From the IMG/VR virus record IMGVR_UViG_3300020220_000424, positions 1 through 20,316 of that record: a stretch of DNA of 20,316 bases; one strand, 5' to 3'. Positions 2,640-16,713 of the stretch are shown here, piece after piece. The DNA is from a virus. Position 1 is the first letter of the stretch, and every line of letters starts with the position of its first letter. Position numbers and translations under genes: made by a program. A model generated the notes under the pieces. The model had not been told where the DNA came from. It saw only the letters and a program-made list of their open reading frames with translations, and ran no database searches.

Positions 2640-3938
2640 ATGGGAATATCACAGCATCCACCAAAGCCTTTCCCTATCAAGAAAGGACTGCCCTGCCAGC
2701 TGAAATGGACTCATTCCACGATTTATTTGACTGAAGGTGCATCTGCTTCTTGTCACAGGGTACAATTTGATCCTATAGAGATGGAGGGAAATAATTTTAA
2801 TTTTCATAATTTACCTGCAAAAGTTTTAGCCAGACAACAAATGTTGGCGGGAAAATGGCCTGGTCGAGGATGTGAACACTGTAAACATATTGAAGATTAT
2901 GGTGGAATTAGTGACAGGATGATACATTTAAATTTAGAAGGTACCACTGCTCCTCCAGAGTTGGATACAGATCTAAATGCTGTTTTAGTTACTCCTAGAC
3001 AATTAGAAGTATACTGGGGCAATACCTGTAATCTTAAATGTATCTATTGTGCTGCACATTTTAGTTCTAGTATCGACGCTGAAGAAAAACGTTTTGGTTT
3101 ATTTGATCAACAAGGTGTTAGAATAGGTGACAATTTTAAATTGTATGATCGAATTGAGGAGGCCACAGGTAAATTGTTTGTATGGTTTGAAAACAATATA
3201 CAAAATTTACACAAATTAATGATACTGGGAGGAGAACCATTCCTACAAAAAGAAACATATAGAATGGTTGAATATTTGGAACAGAAAACTTTGCCCGACT
3301 TGACATTGGTCTTTTTTTCTAATCTCACACTTGAACATGAACGTTTTAAAACTTGGATGTTGAGATTGCAAAAATTAGTAGAGCAAAAACGGCTGGACAA
3401 AATTAATGTTGTCGGCAGTATCGATTGTTGGGGCCCTCAGGCAGAATATATTAGGAACGGATTAAAATTAGATCTATTCAAAAAAAACTTTGATTGGATG
3501 GTTCACAATACTGTTTTTACTAACAACATCAATAGTGCATTCTCACTGCTCAGTGCTCAAACCATGCCAGAATTGGCTGAACGTATCAACGAGTGGAGCA
3601 AAACCAAACAGGTTTATTGGAGTATGATGAAATGTAATCAAAAAGAAATGCCGGGGAGACCTTATCTGTATCCGGGTATATTTGGAGACAAAGTGTTATC
3701 TTTGGGATTGAGAAAGGCTGTCGACATATTCGATCCCATGGTTGCAGGCTACAAAGATTCTGTAAAAGAGCAATATAAAATTTATATGAATGGTATAGCC
3801 AAAGAGATGGAAGAAGCCGAGCCCAACTTCGTGAGACAAAAACAATTTAAAATTTATTTAGAAGAGTTAGATCGCAGACGCGGAACAGATTATAAAAAAC
3901 TATTTCCTCTTGTGGCTGACTGGTTGGATAGAGTTTAA
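2640..3938 (+). CDS. Radical SAM protein of the twitch-domain phage type
   Basis: A 432-residue radical SAM enzyme. C130-NLK-C134-IY-C137 is the CxxxCxxC motif that binds the SAM-cleaving [4Fe-4S] cluster, preceded by a beta-strand (LEVYWGNT). LMILGGEPFL at 194-203 is the GGEP SAM-binding motif. The N-terminus has C19, C38 and a C78-EH-C81 pair in the segment GKWPGRGCEHCKHIEDYGGI, typical of the twitch-containing family found in marine myoviruses. Those cysteines could bind a second cluster or zinc. The substrate is unknown; peptide or protein modification is common for SPASM/twitch relatives. It stands alone on the plus strand among minus genes, its stop overlaps the convergent gene's stop within TTAA, and its codon use looks more AT-rich than its neighbours, which may indicate separate acquisition. 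Confidence 0.85.
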   Translation: MGISQHPPKPFPIKKGLPCQLKWTHSTIYLTEGASASCHRVQFDPIEMEGNNFNFHNLPAKVLARQQMLAGKWPGRGCEHCKHIEDYGGISDRMIHLNLEGTTAPPELDTDLNAVLVTPRQLEVYWGNTCNLKCIYCAAHFSSSIDAEEKRFGLFDQQGVRIGDNFKLYDRIEEATGKLFVWFENNIQNLHKLMILGGEPFLQKETYRMVEYLEQKTLPDLTLVFFSNLTLEHERFKTWMLRLQKLVEQKRLDKINVVGSIDCWGPQAEYIRNGLKLDLFKKNFDWMVHNTVFTNNINSAFSLLSAQTMPELAERINEWSKTKQVYWSMMKCNQKEMPGRPYLYPGIFGDKVLSLGLRKAVDIFDPMVAGYKDSVKEQYKIYMNGIAKEMEEAEPNFVRQKQFKIYLEELDRRRGTDYKKLFPLVADWLDRV

Positions 3939-4294
3939 CTTCTTCTCTTCATGGCTGCCTTGGCCATTTTCTTCACAGTGTCGGTGCTGCCGATGTTGTC
4001 TTTGTTCATTGCAGGATCTTTCTCTGCCTGCTTCTCTGTGTTGAGTATGATCTTGTCTTGATTGAAATCCGCCACAACGTTCTTCAACGCAGCGCCCTTG
4101 TCATATATGCTCTTGAACAGGTTGTAGTTGAAGGTGGGATAGCCCGTGTTCCGGATTATCTGCGACAGCGCTCCAAAACTGATCTCCGCCGTTTGTCCCT
4201 GCTCGTCGGCGTCTCCCCTGAGATTCTGCAGGGTGTTGACTATCACTGATTCCAGTTCATTGTTGGTGTTGTTGAGGAATTCGGAGAATCGCAT
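3935..4294 (-). CDS. Conserved-type small phage protein, MRFSEF N-terminus
   Basis: A 119-residue protein of unknown function. It begins MRFSEFLNNTNNELES, has a mixed helical middle (GALSQIIRNTGYPTFNYNLF), and ends in a basic tail KKMAKAAMKRRS. It follows the 283-residue gene by 5 bases and probably shares its transcript. The N-terminus resembles the M-K/R-x-x-E-F/I start shared with two basic proteins at 15.8-16.7 kb and, loosely, the T4 capsid-targeting sequence. Its size and position suggest a virion or assembly role, which is inference. Confidence 0.75.
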   Translation of the reverse strand: MRFSEFLNNTNNELESVIVNTLQNLRGDADEQGQTAEISFGALSQIIRNTGYPTFNYNLFKSIYDKGAALKNVVADFNQDKIILNTEKQAEKDPAMNKDNIGSTDTVKKMAKAAMKRRS

Positions 4295-4299
4295 TGGGA

Positions 4300-5151
4300 C
4301 TACTTCCCAGCTAGTTTGGAGTATATCCTTGAGCTTGATTCAAAAACCTCGCGGCTTTCTCTCTTCTGTCTGCCTTCTGGTTCGGTTCCGCCTGCGTTTG
4401 CGTCAGTGGCCGCGAACTCATCTGAGGACGGGGCGTTTAAAGTGTCCAGGTCATCGCCGGTGGCATCTAATGGCTCGTCAACCATGCCCATTGGTTCTGA
4501 AACTGTTTCTTCACCTGTGAGTATCCTCACGGCCTGATCTAATTCAGCTCTTGTATTGGTAAGTGTTTGTTCTGCTGCTTCAAGCGCCGGCTTCACTTTC
4601 TGTGCGAAACCGTCTGCCTTGTCCGCTCCCATCTCGTCTCTGATCCTGTCCGACAATTCCAGCATGCTCTCAGTTTTCATTTTGGCTAGATCTTCCAGGA
4701 ATGATGTAACCTTGTCCATCATGTCCTTGGCCGCCAGTATCAGTTCTGATTGATTTTCTATGCCTTCTTGCACTGCTGTCTCTTTCTGCACCATGGCACC
4801 AATGATCTGATCCTTGTCCGTGTCCTTCAATCCCGCCACTTGCTGGATTTTCTTAGCGATGCTCTGTTGCTGCGGAGTAATTTGTGTGTTGATGCCCTGA
4901 CCGGCTTCTCTCACTGCCTGATTTAGGATGTCCAACATCATTTGGTGCTTGTGGTAGTTGTCATCTTTCAGTTCCTGTCCAAAATGTTGATTGTTGGTGA
5001 TCTCGTGTATCTTGGTTCTGACCATGTTGGCCATGTCTTCCAATTGCTCTTGTGACAAGCCTTGCAGGTTCATGGTCTGACCAAATCTTGACTCGAATTG
5101 GGCCAACAGACCTTCTGTGGTGATATTTTTAGATAGGTCAGTTGCTTTCAT
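4300..5151 (-). CDS. Helix-rich coiled-coil phage protein, function unknown
   Basis: A 283-residue, mostly alpha-helical acidic protein. Residues 30-180 contain long runs with heptad-like Leu/Met/Ile spacing (LSQEQLEDMANMVRTKIHEI, then VTSFLEDLAKMKTESMLELS). About residues 180-215 look like another coiled coil (ALEAAEQTLTNTRAELDQAV). The last 65 residues are Asp/Glu/Pro/Gly-rich and probably disordered. This composition is common in scaffold, core or internal virion proteins of T4-like phages, but I do not recognise a named family. It starts 2 bases after the 107-residue gene, so the two are probably translationally coupled. Confidence 0.8.
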   Translation of the reverse strand: MKATDLSKNITTEGLLAQFESRFGQTMNLQGLSQEQLEDMANMVRTKIHEITNNQHFGQELKDDNYHKHQMMLDILNQAVREAGQGINTQITPQQQSIAKKIQQVAGLKDTDKDQIIGAMVQKETAVQEGIENQSELILAAKDMMDKVTSFLEDLAKMKTESMLELSDRIRDEMGADKADGFAQKVKPALEAAEQTLTNTRAELDQAVRILTGEETVSEPMGMVDEPLDATGDDLDTLNAPSSDEFAATDANAGGTEPEGRQKRESREVFESSSRIYSKLAGK

Positions 5152-6471: not shown

Positions 6472-6479
6472 TATTTATT
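6472..6479 (-). promoter_or_regulatory. Late promoter AATAAATA, leaderless type (N6-ATG)
   Basis: AATAAATA on the minus strand, overlapping the stop region of the preceding gene, with six bases (TAAGTC) before the ATG at 6465. T4-type late transcription starts about six bases past this element, which puts the start one base before the ATG. Confidence 0.6.
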
Positions 6480-7557: not shown

Positions 7558-8013
7558 TTATAACTTAATAAAGTATGTGTTTAAGTAGCGCGGGTCCTGT
7601 GTGTCAAAAACCTTCCTGGCGAAGGTGGCAGTCTCCTTGCAGAAGTTTATGATGGGCACCTGGTCGAAATCCTCAATCAGCCCACCGCACTCGTCGCCGT
7701 CGAACTCATACACCGAGGGCTGCTCCACCTGCCACTGGAACTGCCATATGGCGTGCCGACCCTCATAGGCCGAACCAAAGCGCCAGTTGGCCACCGGTTC
7801 AGTCACCCGCTGGGGCACGTTGTCCCAGGTGATGTTGCTCCTGATCTGCAGCAGTTGTATCAGCGTGGTGAAATTGGCCTGCTGGTTGCGGGCCATTGTG
7901 AGAGTGGCGGCGTCATGCACCAGCTCGCCGCTCTTGGTGGTGAATGGAAACTGGTTCCGCAGCACTCCGTTCTCCGTGATGTCCACCAGCGTGGTAATTG
8001 AATATGTGTGCAT
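7558..8013 (-). CDS. Conserved-type hypothetical phage protein, 151 aa
   Basis: Unknown function. Trp/Phe-rich and mostly beta (NWRFGSAYEGRHAIWQFQWQ), with an acidic stretch EFDGDECGGLIEDFDQVP and a C-terminal helix. No signal peptide or membrane segment. It resembles the general character of small structural or assembly proteins. The start follows AT-rich DNA (GTAAATA 9 bases upstream) without an SD, and there is no later in-frame Met before residue 41. Confidence 0.7.
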   Translation of the reverse strand: MHTYSITTLVDITENGVLRNQFPFTTKSGELVHDAATLTMARNQQANFTTLIQLLQIRSNITWDNVPQRVTEPVANWRFGSAYEGRHAIWQFQWQVEQPSVYEFDGDECGGLIEDFDQVPIINFCKETATFARKVFDTQDPRYLNTYFIKL

Positions 8014-8097: not shown

Positions 8098-8409
8098 TTA
8101 CTTGTCTTTGAAGATAGACAGCACTGTTGTGACAGCACCGGTTACTCCGTGAGCATTTGCGCCCACTGCTGAGTAGGTAGCAGTAGATTGTAGAGCAACC
8201 TGCACGTTGTCAGTTACTCCTGTGTCAAATGCTGAACCGTCCGCAGTTGCAACTCCAGCGATTGCAAATCCATCAGATTGCAATGCAGTTAGGATGGTTC
8301 CTAATTCTGCAGATGTGATGTTTGTTTTCGCTATGTTAACGATAGTGGTTCTACCACCTAAGCCGTTAACGATTGAGCCTGCTGACCTTGTGTCAGTTAT
8401 TGTAGCCAT
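8098..8409 (-). CDS. Probable abundant virion protein, 103 aa
   Basis: A Thr/Ala/Val/Gly-rich protein with alternating beta-type segments (GGRTTIVNIAKTNITSAELG, DNVQVALQSTATYSAVGANA), no cysteine, and a short basic end FKDK. It has the window's only perfect TATAAATA, a strong AAGGAG SD spaced 6 bases, and its own terminator. That is the usual dress of a highly expressed late structural protein, such as a head decoration protein or small tail protein. The role is inferred from expression signals and composition, not from a recognised domain. Confidence 0.82.
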   Translation of the reverse strand: MATITDTRSAGSIVNGLGGRTTIVNIAKTNITSAELGTILTALQSDGFAIAGVATADGSAFDTGVTDNVQVALQSTATYSAVGANAHGVTGAVTTVLSIFKDK

Positions 8410-8468: not shown

Positions 8469-8476
8469 TATTTATA
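8469..8476 (-). promoter_or_regulatory. Consensus late promoter TATAAATA
   Basis: A perfect match to the T4 late promoter on the minus strand, 59 bases before the ATG at 8409. The leader holds the AAGGAG SD. It anchors reading of the weaker NTAAATA motifs as late promoters. Confidence 0.8.
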
Positions 8477-8501: not shown

Positions 8502-8642
8502 TTATATTGGATAATTGCTGTCCTTGATGGGCTTCCGCTCCTCGCAGTGACCACAGGCACAGGTGCCGCACTCCAGGCATTCAAAACACTCGGTCTCGCA
8601 ATGATGTTCACAAGCGCATTGTTCACACAAACATTCTAGCAT
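8502..8642 (-). CDS. Metallothionein-like Cys-rich 46-aa peptide
   Basis: A 46-residue protein with 11 cysteines and 3 histidines. The N-terminal block C4-L-C6-E-Q-C9-A-C11-E-H-H-C15 has the C-x-C-x2-C-x-C arrangement of bacterial metallothioneins (SmtA/BmtA type). The second block, C19..C22..C25..C28-A-C30..C33, continues with C-x2-C and C-x-C spacing, and the tail ERKPIKDSNYPI has none. Likely function: binding Zn, Cu or Cd in the infected cell (inferred from spacing; other bacterial metallothioneins are slightly longer). It has no SD. AATAAATA ends 5 bases before the ATG, predicting a leaderless late message. It is divergent from the glycosyltransferase-like gene and shares an AT-rich palindromic promoter with it. 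An alternative is a small zinc-ribbon protein. Confidence 0.75.
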   Translation of the reverse strand: MLECLCEQCACEHHCETECFECLECGTCACGHCEERKPIKDSNYPI

Positions 8643-8647
8643 GATGG

Positions 8648-8660
8648 TATTTATTAAATA
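8648..8660. promoter_or_regulatory. Back-to-back late promoters in one 13-bp palindrome
   Basis: TATTTATTAAATA reads as an inverted repeat TATTTA-T-TAAATA. The minus element (AATAAATA, 8648-8655) is 5 bases from the ATG at 8642. The plus element (TTAAATA, 8654-8660) is 5 bases from the ATG at 8666. Both messages are predicted to be leaderless. Confidence 0.6.
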
Positions 8661-8665
8661 TCATG

Positions 8666-9757
8666 ATGAAGAACTCCTATATCATTCTCGATGCCATGAG
8701 CACCGGCAACATTCCAGAAACTCGAGGCTATCTCAGCTATTTTGATCACGCACACATATCCCTCAGGATGTCCGATCATTACTTTGAGCATGAATCTGTG
8801 CCGTTAGATCTCTACAGTCACAAATATGTCATGCTTGACACATATTTTGTCAAGAGATTTAAATTGGGACAAGAATATAAAGATGATTTGTCAAGGAAAC
8901 TCACAGTGCTCAACAAATTAAATTTTATACCTGTGTTTGCGAATCTTTGGGAAAGATATAATTATAAAAATGCGGATATGGAGACTCTTGCACTTTTTCA
9001 ACAAGTTCTTAAAAAATCCAAAGCTGCTCTGTATGGCGAGCTACATGGCAGCCGATCTTTCTTTTGGTGGCTGATGTATGACAAATACATCAACAACAAA
9101 CTGATCGATTCTTTGAATATAGATCATTCGATCAAATCATTTGATTTTTTGTATCTGAACAAGGTGCCTCGCCTACACAGGATTCATTTATACAATCAAA
9201 TGATGGCTGTTGGAGCTTTGAAAAAATCTCTATTTACATATAGAATGGAAAACTTTAATAAACTCTTGCCCCCAGAATATGAAATTCCAGAATTCAAACA
9301 CAATTATCCATTTTATGGATATGACCAAACAATATATACCCTGCCTTACAATCATTCCAAGATCAACCTAGTCACAGAGACTCTCGCAGATGATCCAAAT
9401 TCGGGTGGGTATCCTTATTTTTTAACAGAAAAGATCTGGAAACCCATAATTTGCCAGCAACCTTTCATAGTGTATGGACAACGAGGTTATCTAAAATGTC
9501 TACGAGAAATGGGATTTAAAACTTTCAGTGATGTATGGGACGAATCTTATGATGATGAAAAAGATTGTTTCAAAAGGGGCAACAAGATAGCCAACTTGGC
9601 CAGATCTCTGTTGGATATAGACAGTGAAAAATTGTATTCAGACACCAAGCATATTAGATCTCATAATTTGAAGATTTTTTCCGATAAAGAAATATTGAAA
9701 TCTATCATCACACAAGACGTGTGCAGATCTCTATTCAATGATTTGATTAAGATTTAA
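8666..9757 (+). CDS. Glycosyltransferase-like protein
   Basis: A 363-residue protein with the C-terminal signature FLTEKIWKPIICQQPFIVYG, then LREMGFKTFSDVWDESYD. This resembles the nucleotide-sugar-binding region of GT10-like and related phage/bacterial glycosyltransferases (x-TEK-x-x-x-P...P-x-x-x-G). The upstream segment LYLNKVPRLHRIHLYNQM is also typical of this group. The N-terminal half is an unrecognised alpha/beta region. It is predicted to be cytoplasmic, with no signal or membrane helix. It may decorate a virion protein or a host glycan, and a UDP-glucose dehydrogenase family gene lies 5 kb away. I chose the second of two adjacent ATGs because TTAAATA ends 5 bases before it; 8663 is the alternative. 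The 3' end overlaps the convergent gene by 11 bases. Confidence 0.72.
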   Translation: MKNSYIILDAMSTGNIPETRGYLSYFDHAHISLRMSDHYFEHESVPLDLYSHKYVMLDTYFVKRFKLGQEYKDDLSRKLTVLNKLNFIPVFANLWERYNYKNADMETLALFQQVLKKSKAALYGELHGSRSFFWWLMYDKYINNKLIDSLNIDHSIKSFDFLYLNKVPRLHRIHLYNQMMAVGALKKSLFTYRMENFNKLLPPEYEIPEFKHNYPFYGYDQTIYTLPYNHSKINLVTETLADDPNSGGYPYFLTEKIWKPIICQQPFIVYGQRGYLKCLREMGFKTFSDVWDESYDDEKDCFKRGNKIANLARSLLDIDSEKLYSDTKHIRSHNLKIFSDKEILKSIITQDVCRSLFNDLIKI

Positions 9758-10961
9758 ATTTGTTGATCGCAGTTAGGTTCTTTCTGCTGAATCCCAAACG
9801 ATCCACCAACTTGACTGCATCTCCGGCCGTGCCCACTGCCACGAAACCTTCTGGATCTGTGACTTCCAACCCTGCGTCAGTCTGTGCGAATGCGCCTATG
9901 GAGGTGGCTTTGTTCAATTTTGCCAGTGTGAGATTCTTGAGTGCGATCACCTCCTTGTAGAATGCCATCATAGCAGCCAATGGCCGCTGCATCTGTTTCA
10001 GGAACAAAGGCATGTCTTTCATCTTCTGCTGTCTCAGTTGCAGAGCTTTCTGTGCTTTCAATCCCGACGCCTGCTGTTGCATCCTGCCCTGATAGTACTC
10101 AGCAAAATCTTTGAGATATTGATTGGTATCCGTGGGTATCTTGCCCTGCCTGATCTGATCATTGATGAACAGCATGAAGAAAGGCAGGAAGTCCCGGTTC
10201 ACTCCCAACATTGCGGAAAGATTTGTGGGCACCTTGCCCAGCAATGACTTCAATTGCTCTATGCCTGCCGTGAACTGCTGTTGCTCTTCTCTTGTGAAGT
10301 TGGCATTACCGCTGACATTTTTATATGTGGCATTGTCAAACCATACATCTGGCGTGCGACTGAAAGACTCCACATCAGCGCCATACTGGGCCTTTAGATT
10401 GGCTATGGCATCTCCTGTGTAGGTAGTATGGAATATGATACCCACTTGCGCCGCGGCTATTTGCTTGCCCAGGTCACTGTTCTCAGGCACTGCGTAGGTG
10501 ATGGTGTTGGGTCTGAAAGTTATGTAATTTTCTCCCGACATGCTCTGTCTTTTAAGGGTGTCCCTGTCAAACATAAAGTCACCCTGCACGATGCCCTGTA
10601 TATTGAGTTTTTGAAGATGCACCAGGCACTTCAATAATTTCTGTCCCAGATCATCGGTGCCGTGATTGCGGGCGATGTCTGCTTTTGTATAGTTCAGCTT
10701 GGGCGTCTTGGCGAATATGCCCTTGGTGCCCACGAACCACCGATCGTTCTCGGGATTGATGCCGCACACGATGGCCGGGGCGCCGTCCCATTTGACCGAC
10801 ACGTTGATGGGTTGGTCAGCAGATCCCTGCAGCGTTTGCAATATGCCCTGGAAATAATTGATCACGGCTTCGCCACCGGAGTGGCCATCTGTCAGTATAA
10901 TATCTTCTATGTGTTGCAGGTGAGTTCGCTTAAACTCGTGTAGTACTTCCTCTATCAGCAT
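9747..10961 (-). CDS. Nucleotidyltransferase/ligase-like protein with KWDG motif (DUF6267-type)
   Basis: A 404-residue conserved-type marine myovirus protein. VSVKWDGAPAIVCG at 54-67 contains K57-W-D-G60, the KxDG motif I of covalent nucleotidyltransferases (DNA/RNA ligases, capping enzymes). RWFVGTKGIFAK (74-85) could supply the following strands. IVQGDFMFD (124-132) resembles motif III, and YITFRPNTITYAV (146-158) resembles the motif IIIa/IV area. The C-terminal 190 residues are helical (LLGKVPTNLSAMLGVNRDF; KALQLRQQKMKDMPLFLKQM). I believe it belongs to the phage family called DUF6267, from memory. Enzyme activity is inferred. The start overlaps the preceding gene's stop as TAATG, and the 3' end overlaps the glycosyltransferase-like gene. 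Confidence 0.78.
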   Translation of the reverse strand: MLIEEVLHEFKRTHLQHIEDIILTDGHSGGEAVINYFQGILQTLQGSADQPINVSVKWDGAPAIVCGINPENDRWFVGTKGIFAKTPKLNYTKADIARNHGTDDLGQKLLKCLVHLQKLNIQGIVQGDFMFDRDTLKRQSMSGENYITFRPNTITYAVPENSDLGKQIAAAQVGIIFHTTYTGDAIANLKAQYGADVESFSRTPDVWFDNATYKNVSGNANFTREEQQQFTAGIEQLKSLLGKVPTNLSAMLGVNRDFLPFFMLFINDQIRQGKIPTDTNQYLKDFAEYYQGRMQQQASGLKAQKALQLRQQKMKDMPLFLKQMQRPLAAMMAFYKEVIALKNLTLAKLNKATSIGAFAQTDAGLEVTDPEGFVAVGTAGDAVKLVDRLGFSRKNLTAINKFKS

Positions 10962-16223: not shown

Positions 16224-16231
16224 GATAAATA
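16224..16231 (+). promoter_or_regulatory. Late promoter GATAAATA, leaderless type (N5-ATG)
   Basis: GATAAATA on the plus strand with five bases (TTCAT) before the ATG at 16237, and no SD. The 8-mer is the same as the tandem motifs at 5.85 kb. Confidence 0.6.
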
Positions 16232-16236
16232 TTCAT

Positions 16237-16713
16237 ATGAAGATATCCGAAATCATGGGTCCAAAGATAGCTAGTTCTATCAACCCAACCCAGACGCAAG
16301 ATCTAGTGCCACAAGATATTGTGGCCATGCCCGCGGGCTCGGCCATAGCGGAGGGCATCAAGAGGATATTGAGGCGTGTCAAGGGCAAGGGCCTGAAGCA
16401 GGGTTTCAGATGCACAGATGGCCCGAGAAAGGGCAGGATAGTCGCCAACCCAGGAACCTGCAACGCCAGACTACAACCACTCAAGGGCGCCAAGATTGCC
16501 CAGAAGCGACAGAGGGTGGCCAAGCAGACCGCGATCAAGAGAGCTAGAACGATGCGGGCCGGCGGGGCTTCAAGGAGGCTGTCTGCGATACAGGTTGGAA
16601 GACATGGCGGCACCGCTCCGCTCAAGAAAGCCAAGAAGCTGAAAAAGGGCACATCGCTGAAGAAGAAACAAGCATTCCAGAAGAGCAAGATAATCAAGCC
16701 CAAAAAGAAATAA
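16237..16713 (+). CDS. Highly basic protein, candidate DNA-binding/internal head protein
   Basis: A 158-residue protein with N-terminus MKISEIMGPKIASSINPTQT, then a Pro/Asp segment and a strongly basic body (KRILRRVKGKGLKQGFRCTD, KRQRVAKQTAIKRARTMRAG), ending in a Lys-rich tail (KKLKKGTSLKKKQAFQKSKI). Two Cys. There is no recognised enzyme motif. The composition is histone- or protamine-like, and the short N-terminal tag resembles T4 capsid-targeting sequences, so a packaged DNA-condensing role is a reasonable guess. The start at 16237 is fixed by GATAAATA-N5-ATG. Longer in-frame extensions to about 16189 would begin upstream of the promoter. Confidence 0.75.
   Translation: MKISEIMGPKIASSINPTQTQDLVPQDIVAMPAGSAIAEGIKRILRRVKGKGLKQGFRCTDGPRKGRIVANPGTCNARLQPLKGAKIAQKRQRVAKQTAIKRARTMRAGGASRRLSAIQVGRHGGTAPLKKAKKLKKGTSLKKKQAFQKSKIIKPKKK

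Follow-up and report, generated by a model that had tools for sequence, protein, structure and literature searches.

What does a phage gain from a 46-residue peptide that contains 11 cysteines? The question is raised by a minus-strand open reading frame (ORF) in the window analysed here, which comprises the entire 20,316-base IMG/VR virus record IMGVR_UViG_3300020220_000424. Little is known of metal handling as a phage-encoded trait, and a widespread, phage-only family of metallothionein-like proteins would imply that, late in infection, phages control Zn or other soft metals, which can be scarce in the environments concerned. Annotation misses genes of the kind described below, because they run to only 35–60 codons and have no entry in Pfam, NCBIfam or PHROGs.

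The ORF encodes MLECLCEQCACEHHCETECFECLECGTCACGHCEERKPIKDSNYPI, ends at a stop codon and sits between a 103-amino-acid gene and a divergently oriented one (Table 1). An earlier note on this DNA had described, without naming the strand, 11 Cys in 46 residues, three His and a definite set of Cys spacings, all of which were confirmed by reading the minus-strand frame: the Cys occupy positions 4, 6, 9, 11, 15, 19, 22, 25, 28, 30 and 33, and the His positions 13, 14 and 32. With 24% Cys and a net charge of −7, the peptide has the composition of the metallothionein class (small, 15–35% Cys, C-x-C motifs and few aromatic residues). No run of 30 open codons with 11 Cys arose in 300 dinucleotide-preserving shuffles of the window, in which the maximum was 9.

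Table 1 Features around the Cys-rich ORF in the window
Feature	Position	Strand	Basis
151-amino-acid gene, conserved neighbour (74–100% identity)	7558–8013	−	Sequence comparison
103-amino-acid gene downstream of the Cys-rich ORF, with TATAAATA at 8476–8469 and a Shine–Dalgarno sequence	8098–8409	−	Sequence reading
46-amino-acid Cys/His-rich ORF, a type-1 member of the phage metallothionein-like family	8502–8642	−	Frame, relatives and pN/pS of 0.18
T4-late-promoter-like AATAAATA, 3′ end 5 nt before the ATG of the Cys-rich ORF (leaderless type)	8648–8655	−	Same spacing in 11 distinct members; promoter activity predicted
ATTAAATA, opposite to and overlapping AATAAATA, 5 nt upstream of the start codon (ATG 8666) of the divergent gene; the weaker site, with 2 mismatches to TATAAATA	8653–8660	+	Sequence reading
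Divergent 364-amino-acid gene, conserved neighbour (34–100% identity), no Pfam or PHROG match	8663–9757	+	Sequence comparison
DUF6267 (phrog_455) gene, anchor to T4-like Kyanoviridae	9747–10961	−	Best match Pelagibacter phage HTVC008M, 40%

A scan of IMG/VR for the Cys/His spacing, followed by inspection of the frames, identified 57 genuine loci of this type (type 1), encoding 36 distinct short proteins; these locus counts do not equal independent events, because many contigs are fragmentary and related metagenomes contributed some of them. Most of what broad Cys patterns picked up was low-complexity noise, which was weeded out by frame reading. The search patterns partly force Cys conservation, but the final pattern fixes nothing beyond the sixth Cys, and the five C-terminal Cys that lie outside it nevertheless occur in every one of the 36 proteins. 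Position 32 carries His in 33 of them and Cys in the other three, which reads as a ligand exchange. According to the earlier note, a frame or Cys conservation missing from close relatives would speak against its proposal of a phage metallothionein-like peptide; frame and all Cys are kept, and a real, conserved gene of this kind is borne out. In each of the two subgroups tested pN/pS is 0.18, synonymous change is close to saturation and most invariant Cys codons switch between TGT and TGC; as judged from its codons, the gene is plainly under purifying selection. Among 84,980 species genomes of bacteria and archaea the same Cys/His pattern gave 18 matches, none of them a family member, and the type-1 profile, which recovers the known viral members, found none in 754 further genomes of two classes. 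The family therefore appears to be phage-specific as far as tested. A tblastn search of a phage collection with four members returned no true relative, probably in part owing to low-complexity masking of such Cys-rich queries; a match in Arthrobacter phage ArV1 (E 3) is an unrelated 107-amino-acid protein.

The nearest isolate match of the DUF6267 product is HTVC008M, followed by cyanophages, and on this basis we assign the window to a Kyanoviridae-related, T4-like myovirus. Across the window clade, where the Cys-rich gene stands alone, the order DUF6267, divergent gene, Cys-rich gene, a gene of about 103 amino acids and one of about 151 is kept, and the Cys-rich gene holds its place while its divergent neighbour drops to 34% identity. 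When DUF6267 alone was used as bait, a family member turned up in 38 of the 79 loci recovered, invariably on the strand of the bait gene and, with few exceptions, about 1.1–1.9 kb downstream of it. Elsewhere the context of type 1 varies, adjoining genes for DNA polymerase, a GH19 lysin, TauD or a superoxide dismutase (SOD)-domain protein, a spread more readily expected of a diffusible product than of a component of any single machine. The window also encodes, at 258–1865(−), a tail protein that combines an Mtd_N domain (N terminus of the major tropism determinant) with a pectate-lyase-like domain. Among the products of window genes (3935–4294, 4300–5151, 9747–10961 and 16237–16713) and of neighbouring genes at L029, L123, L130 and L281, several have M-x-x-x-[ED]-[ILFVM]-like N termini (MRFSEF, MKATDL, MLIEEV, MKISEI, MKFKEM and MRWAEI) that recall T4 capsid-targeting sequences.

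A T4-type late transcript of the Cys-rich ORF would begin at or next to the AUG, because AATAAATA ends so close upstream. The leaderless-type late promoter claimed in the earlier note holds up in comparison: in 11 distinct members, including that of the window, the gap between the end of an xATAAATA motif of T4-late type and the ATG is exactly 5 nt and a Shine–Dalgarno sequence is lacking, and most other members carry a Shine–Dalgarno sequence 6–9 nt upstream of the start. From these signals we infer that the gene is expressed late. Such starts look like a common habit of the window phage, because the same layout (GATAAATA-N5-ATG) recurs at 16224–16237 and nearly so at 6479; the xATAAATA-like sites at 16224–16237, 6479 and 2616 all lie 5–6 nt upstream of an ATG. 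At 8648–8660, two oppositely directed late-promoter-like sites overlap, each 5 nt from an ATG, one of the Cys-rich and one of the divergent gene.

Searching with the type-1 profile also uncovered a sister type with 10 Cys and one His (type 2), which reads C-x2-C-x-C-x2-H-C-x3-C-x2-C-x2-C-x2-C-x-C-x2-C and shares its core with type 1. The superfamily then comprises 145 distinct proteins, 38 of type 1 and 107 of type 2, and the two stand in tandem in certain records closely related to the window (L048 and L134). Unlike type 1, type 2 lacks the first Cys and two of the His, and it is often coupled or fused to an FkbM methyltransferase (PF05050, E 2.5e-10 and 3.8e-16; TIGR01444). At 62 loci the type-2 gene ends between −19 and +13 nt from where the FkbM match begins, in most cases overlapping it, and several different overlaps occur among those junctions that were read exactly; at 11 loci (on nine contigs) type 2 is fused in frame to the N terminus of FkbM. 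Tandem pairs of Cys-rich genes, of type 2, often precede FkbM. Examples of overlap or fusion are L312:8090–8815, L321:8719–9441 and L476:3548–4269, in addition to some 60 other loci. This association gives a second, unexpected handle on the family.

What the proteins have in common is their ligands. Members are 35–61 amino acids long and average 26% Cys and 2.3% aromatic residues, with repeated C-x-C motifs and a mean net charge of −4.6, and in an alignment of both types conservation is essentially limited to ligand-type residues while the remainder varies. Because the family is so rich in Cys, almost devoid of aromatic residues and acidic, with Cys and His alone invariant, it very probably binds metal. 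The number of ligands in the window peptide, 11 Cys and three His, leads us to expect about four Zn ions (range 3–5) gathered in a single cluster, and the invariance of the His favours Zn or Cd over a Cu(I)-thionein. The confidence of the AlphaFold model of the peptide (pLDDT 68, pTM 0.41) is too low for the model to be relied on, and a Foldseek search of the PDB with this model returned no matching fold.

Our main reading, to which we give a probability of roughly 0.55, is that the window gene encodes a late-made, metallothionein-like Zn-thiolate protein that buffers or donates metal. The T4-like phage would make this small protein late in infection; the peptide would fold around metal, most likely Zn(II), and capture Zn, or a toxic metal, released as host proteins are lost in the dying cell. 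Metal so captured could stay available, or harmless, while virions are built. We propose metal buffering as its job with moderate confidence. The proposal raises a testable question: do infected cells hold the metal, and does the phage keep it?

That the ORF is a gene at all could be doubted, because a short frame with no database family might be open by chance. Conservation across diverged phages, the pN/pS value, start signals, synteny and fusions all argue against this reading, which is ruled out at the sequence level and is left with a negligible chance. The main rival is an enzyme partnership, on account of the overlap and fusion of the sister type with FkbM, which also weaken the case for a buffer or donor by suggesting such a partnership for at least that branch. 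Here the peptide would serve one particular phage enzyme as a Zn-thiolate partner module: type 2 would be a translationally coupled or fused subunit of FkbM that stabilizes it or supplies a metal site, and type 1 would be the same module, working in trans with a different enzyme. Analogies are offered by small Zn partners, Trm112 among them, and by the Zn3Cys9 pre-SET cluster of SET methyltransferases. The 62 close junctions, the tandem pairs and the in-frame fusions speak for this idea; however, FkbM is found in only two of 49 type-1 records, and the window has no FkbM gene that its Cys-rich gene could overlap or join. Nor does FkbM need a Cys-rich partner everywhere, because 17 of the 41 DUF6267 loci with no family member do have FkbM. 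In an AlphaFold model of a type-2/FkbM fusion, in which no metal was modelled and only three sequences cover the Cys domain, that domain is disordered beside a confident FkbM fold. As an account of the window peptide, we consider enzyme partnership rather doubtful, yet a role beside specific enzymes is a serious alternative to free storage, given the FkbM overlaps and fusions and the SOD-domain neighbour in one clade.

That neighbour is also the reason for considering a metallochaperone or antioxidant, which would load a phage metalloenzyme with Zn or Cu, or use its thiols to scavenge oxidants late in infection. In this one type-1 clade, the gene comes directly after one for a 639–739-amino-acid protein that contains an entire Cu/Zn superoxide dismutase domain (PF00080, E 1.5e-45). 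PF00080 occurs, however, in only five of 50 type-1 records, four of them from that clade; the window lay outside this search, and none of its ORFs was noted as a SOD. We regard such a role as unlikely. The SOD-domain ORF lies directly upstream of the type-1 gene at L141, where it is 739 amino acids long, and is also present in the records of L129, L138 and L140; the N terminus of the L141 protein, MKWRDIKEDG, resembles the short charged N termini of neighbouring late genes. Small Cys/His-rich phage proteins can act as regulators, and a weak profile likeness to AIR2 and retroviral zinc knuckles (E 0.04 and worse) would suit a small zinc finger that binds nucleic acid or RNA polymerase. This is less probable still: the peptide is strongly acidic (−7), no basic, aromatic or hydrophobic position is conserved, and 14 ligands in 30 residues leave scant recognition surface. 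The buffer or donor remains our preferred reading for the window gene. A wider and more tentative possibility joins it to the FkbM association, with a phage-evolved metal-thiolate superfamily, unrelated to cellular metallothioneins, in which type 1 proteins are free late buffers and type 2 proteins are Zn-cluster partner modules of FkbM, separate or fused. If this were true, type 2 would represent a metallothionein-like cluster recruited into a methyltransferase.

How does the family relate to systems already described? No family in Pfam, NCBIfam or PHROG covers it, and its matches to PHROG 24592 and 16378 are weak (E 0.0085 and 0.048). A 4Fe-4S ferredoxin (C-x2-C-x2-C-x3-C with a remote Cys) was rejected, as that spacing is conserved in neither type and no Pfam ferredoxin matches. 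A viral metallothionein may reportedly have been associated with Vibrio phage PWH3a-P1, but the genome of that phage contains no ORF with at least seven Cys in 40 residues; we found no report of a phage metallothionein in open-access full text, and an earlier one in the subscription literature is possible. Among cultured pelagiphages, HTVC008M (30276–30398) and Mosig (90375–90512) each carry a small Cys/His gene a few genes upstream of a baseplate wedge gene. Their products share the N-terminal C-x2-C-x-[C/H]-x2-H-C, or a close variant, and the C-x2-C-x-C tail, but have fewer Cys than type 1 and an insertion in mid-protein; the type-1 profile matches the HTVC008M gene at E 0.03 and the Mosig gene not at all. 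These likenesses are suggestive of distant relatives, and only that.

The closest comparison is with the bacterial metallothioneins SmtA and BmtA (PF02069, Metallothio_Pro), whose N-terminal spacing the earlier note had likened to that of the first Cys block. The likeness lies in small size, abundant Cys with His, and an N-terminal C-x-C-x2-C-x-C that does match SmtA (PDB 1JJD); the x3-C that the note had counted in the same block is not shared, the next Cys of SmtA lying 15 residues on. The phage proteins have 11 Cys rather than nine, are found in phages only and have no visible smtB-type regulator; the central Y-C-x3-C zinc-finger half and the C-terminal C-x-C of PF02069 are absent from them, and the spacing differs throughout. 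The PF02069 model matched none of 14 and 30 members, nor any of 19 records, though it recognized SmtA (3.9e-21) and the S. elongatus protein, and hhalign gave the family profile a 1.7% probability against SmtA. With the second half also wrong, membership of PF02069 was rejected, and kinship with SmtA and BmtA is not supported. SmtA binds four Zn ions (PMC10612145). In arrangement, the phage family differs from the alpha domain of eukaryotic metallothioneins in its invariant His, its other spacing and the lack of a Pfam match. That domain (M4Cys11) holds 11 Cys in about 30 residues with many C-x-C motifs, and in both respects the phage proteins resemble it. They form a large, previously undescribed family that, on the best reading of these sequences, would work like a metallothionein yet belongs to no known metallothionein family.
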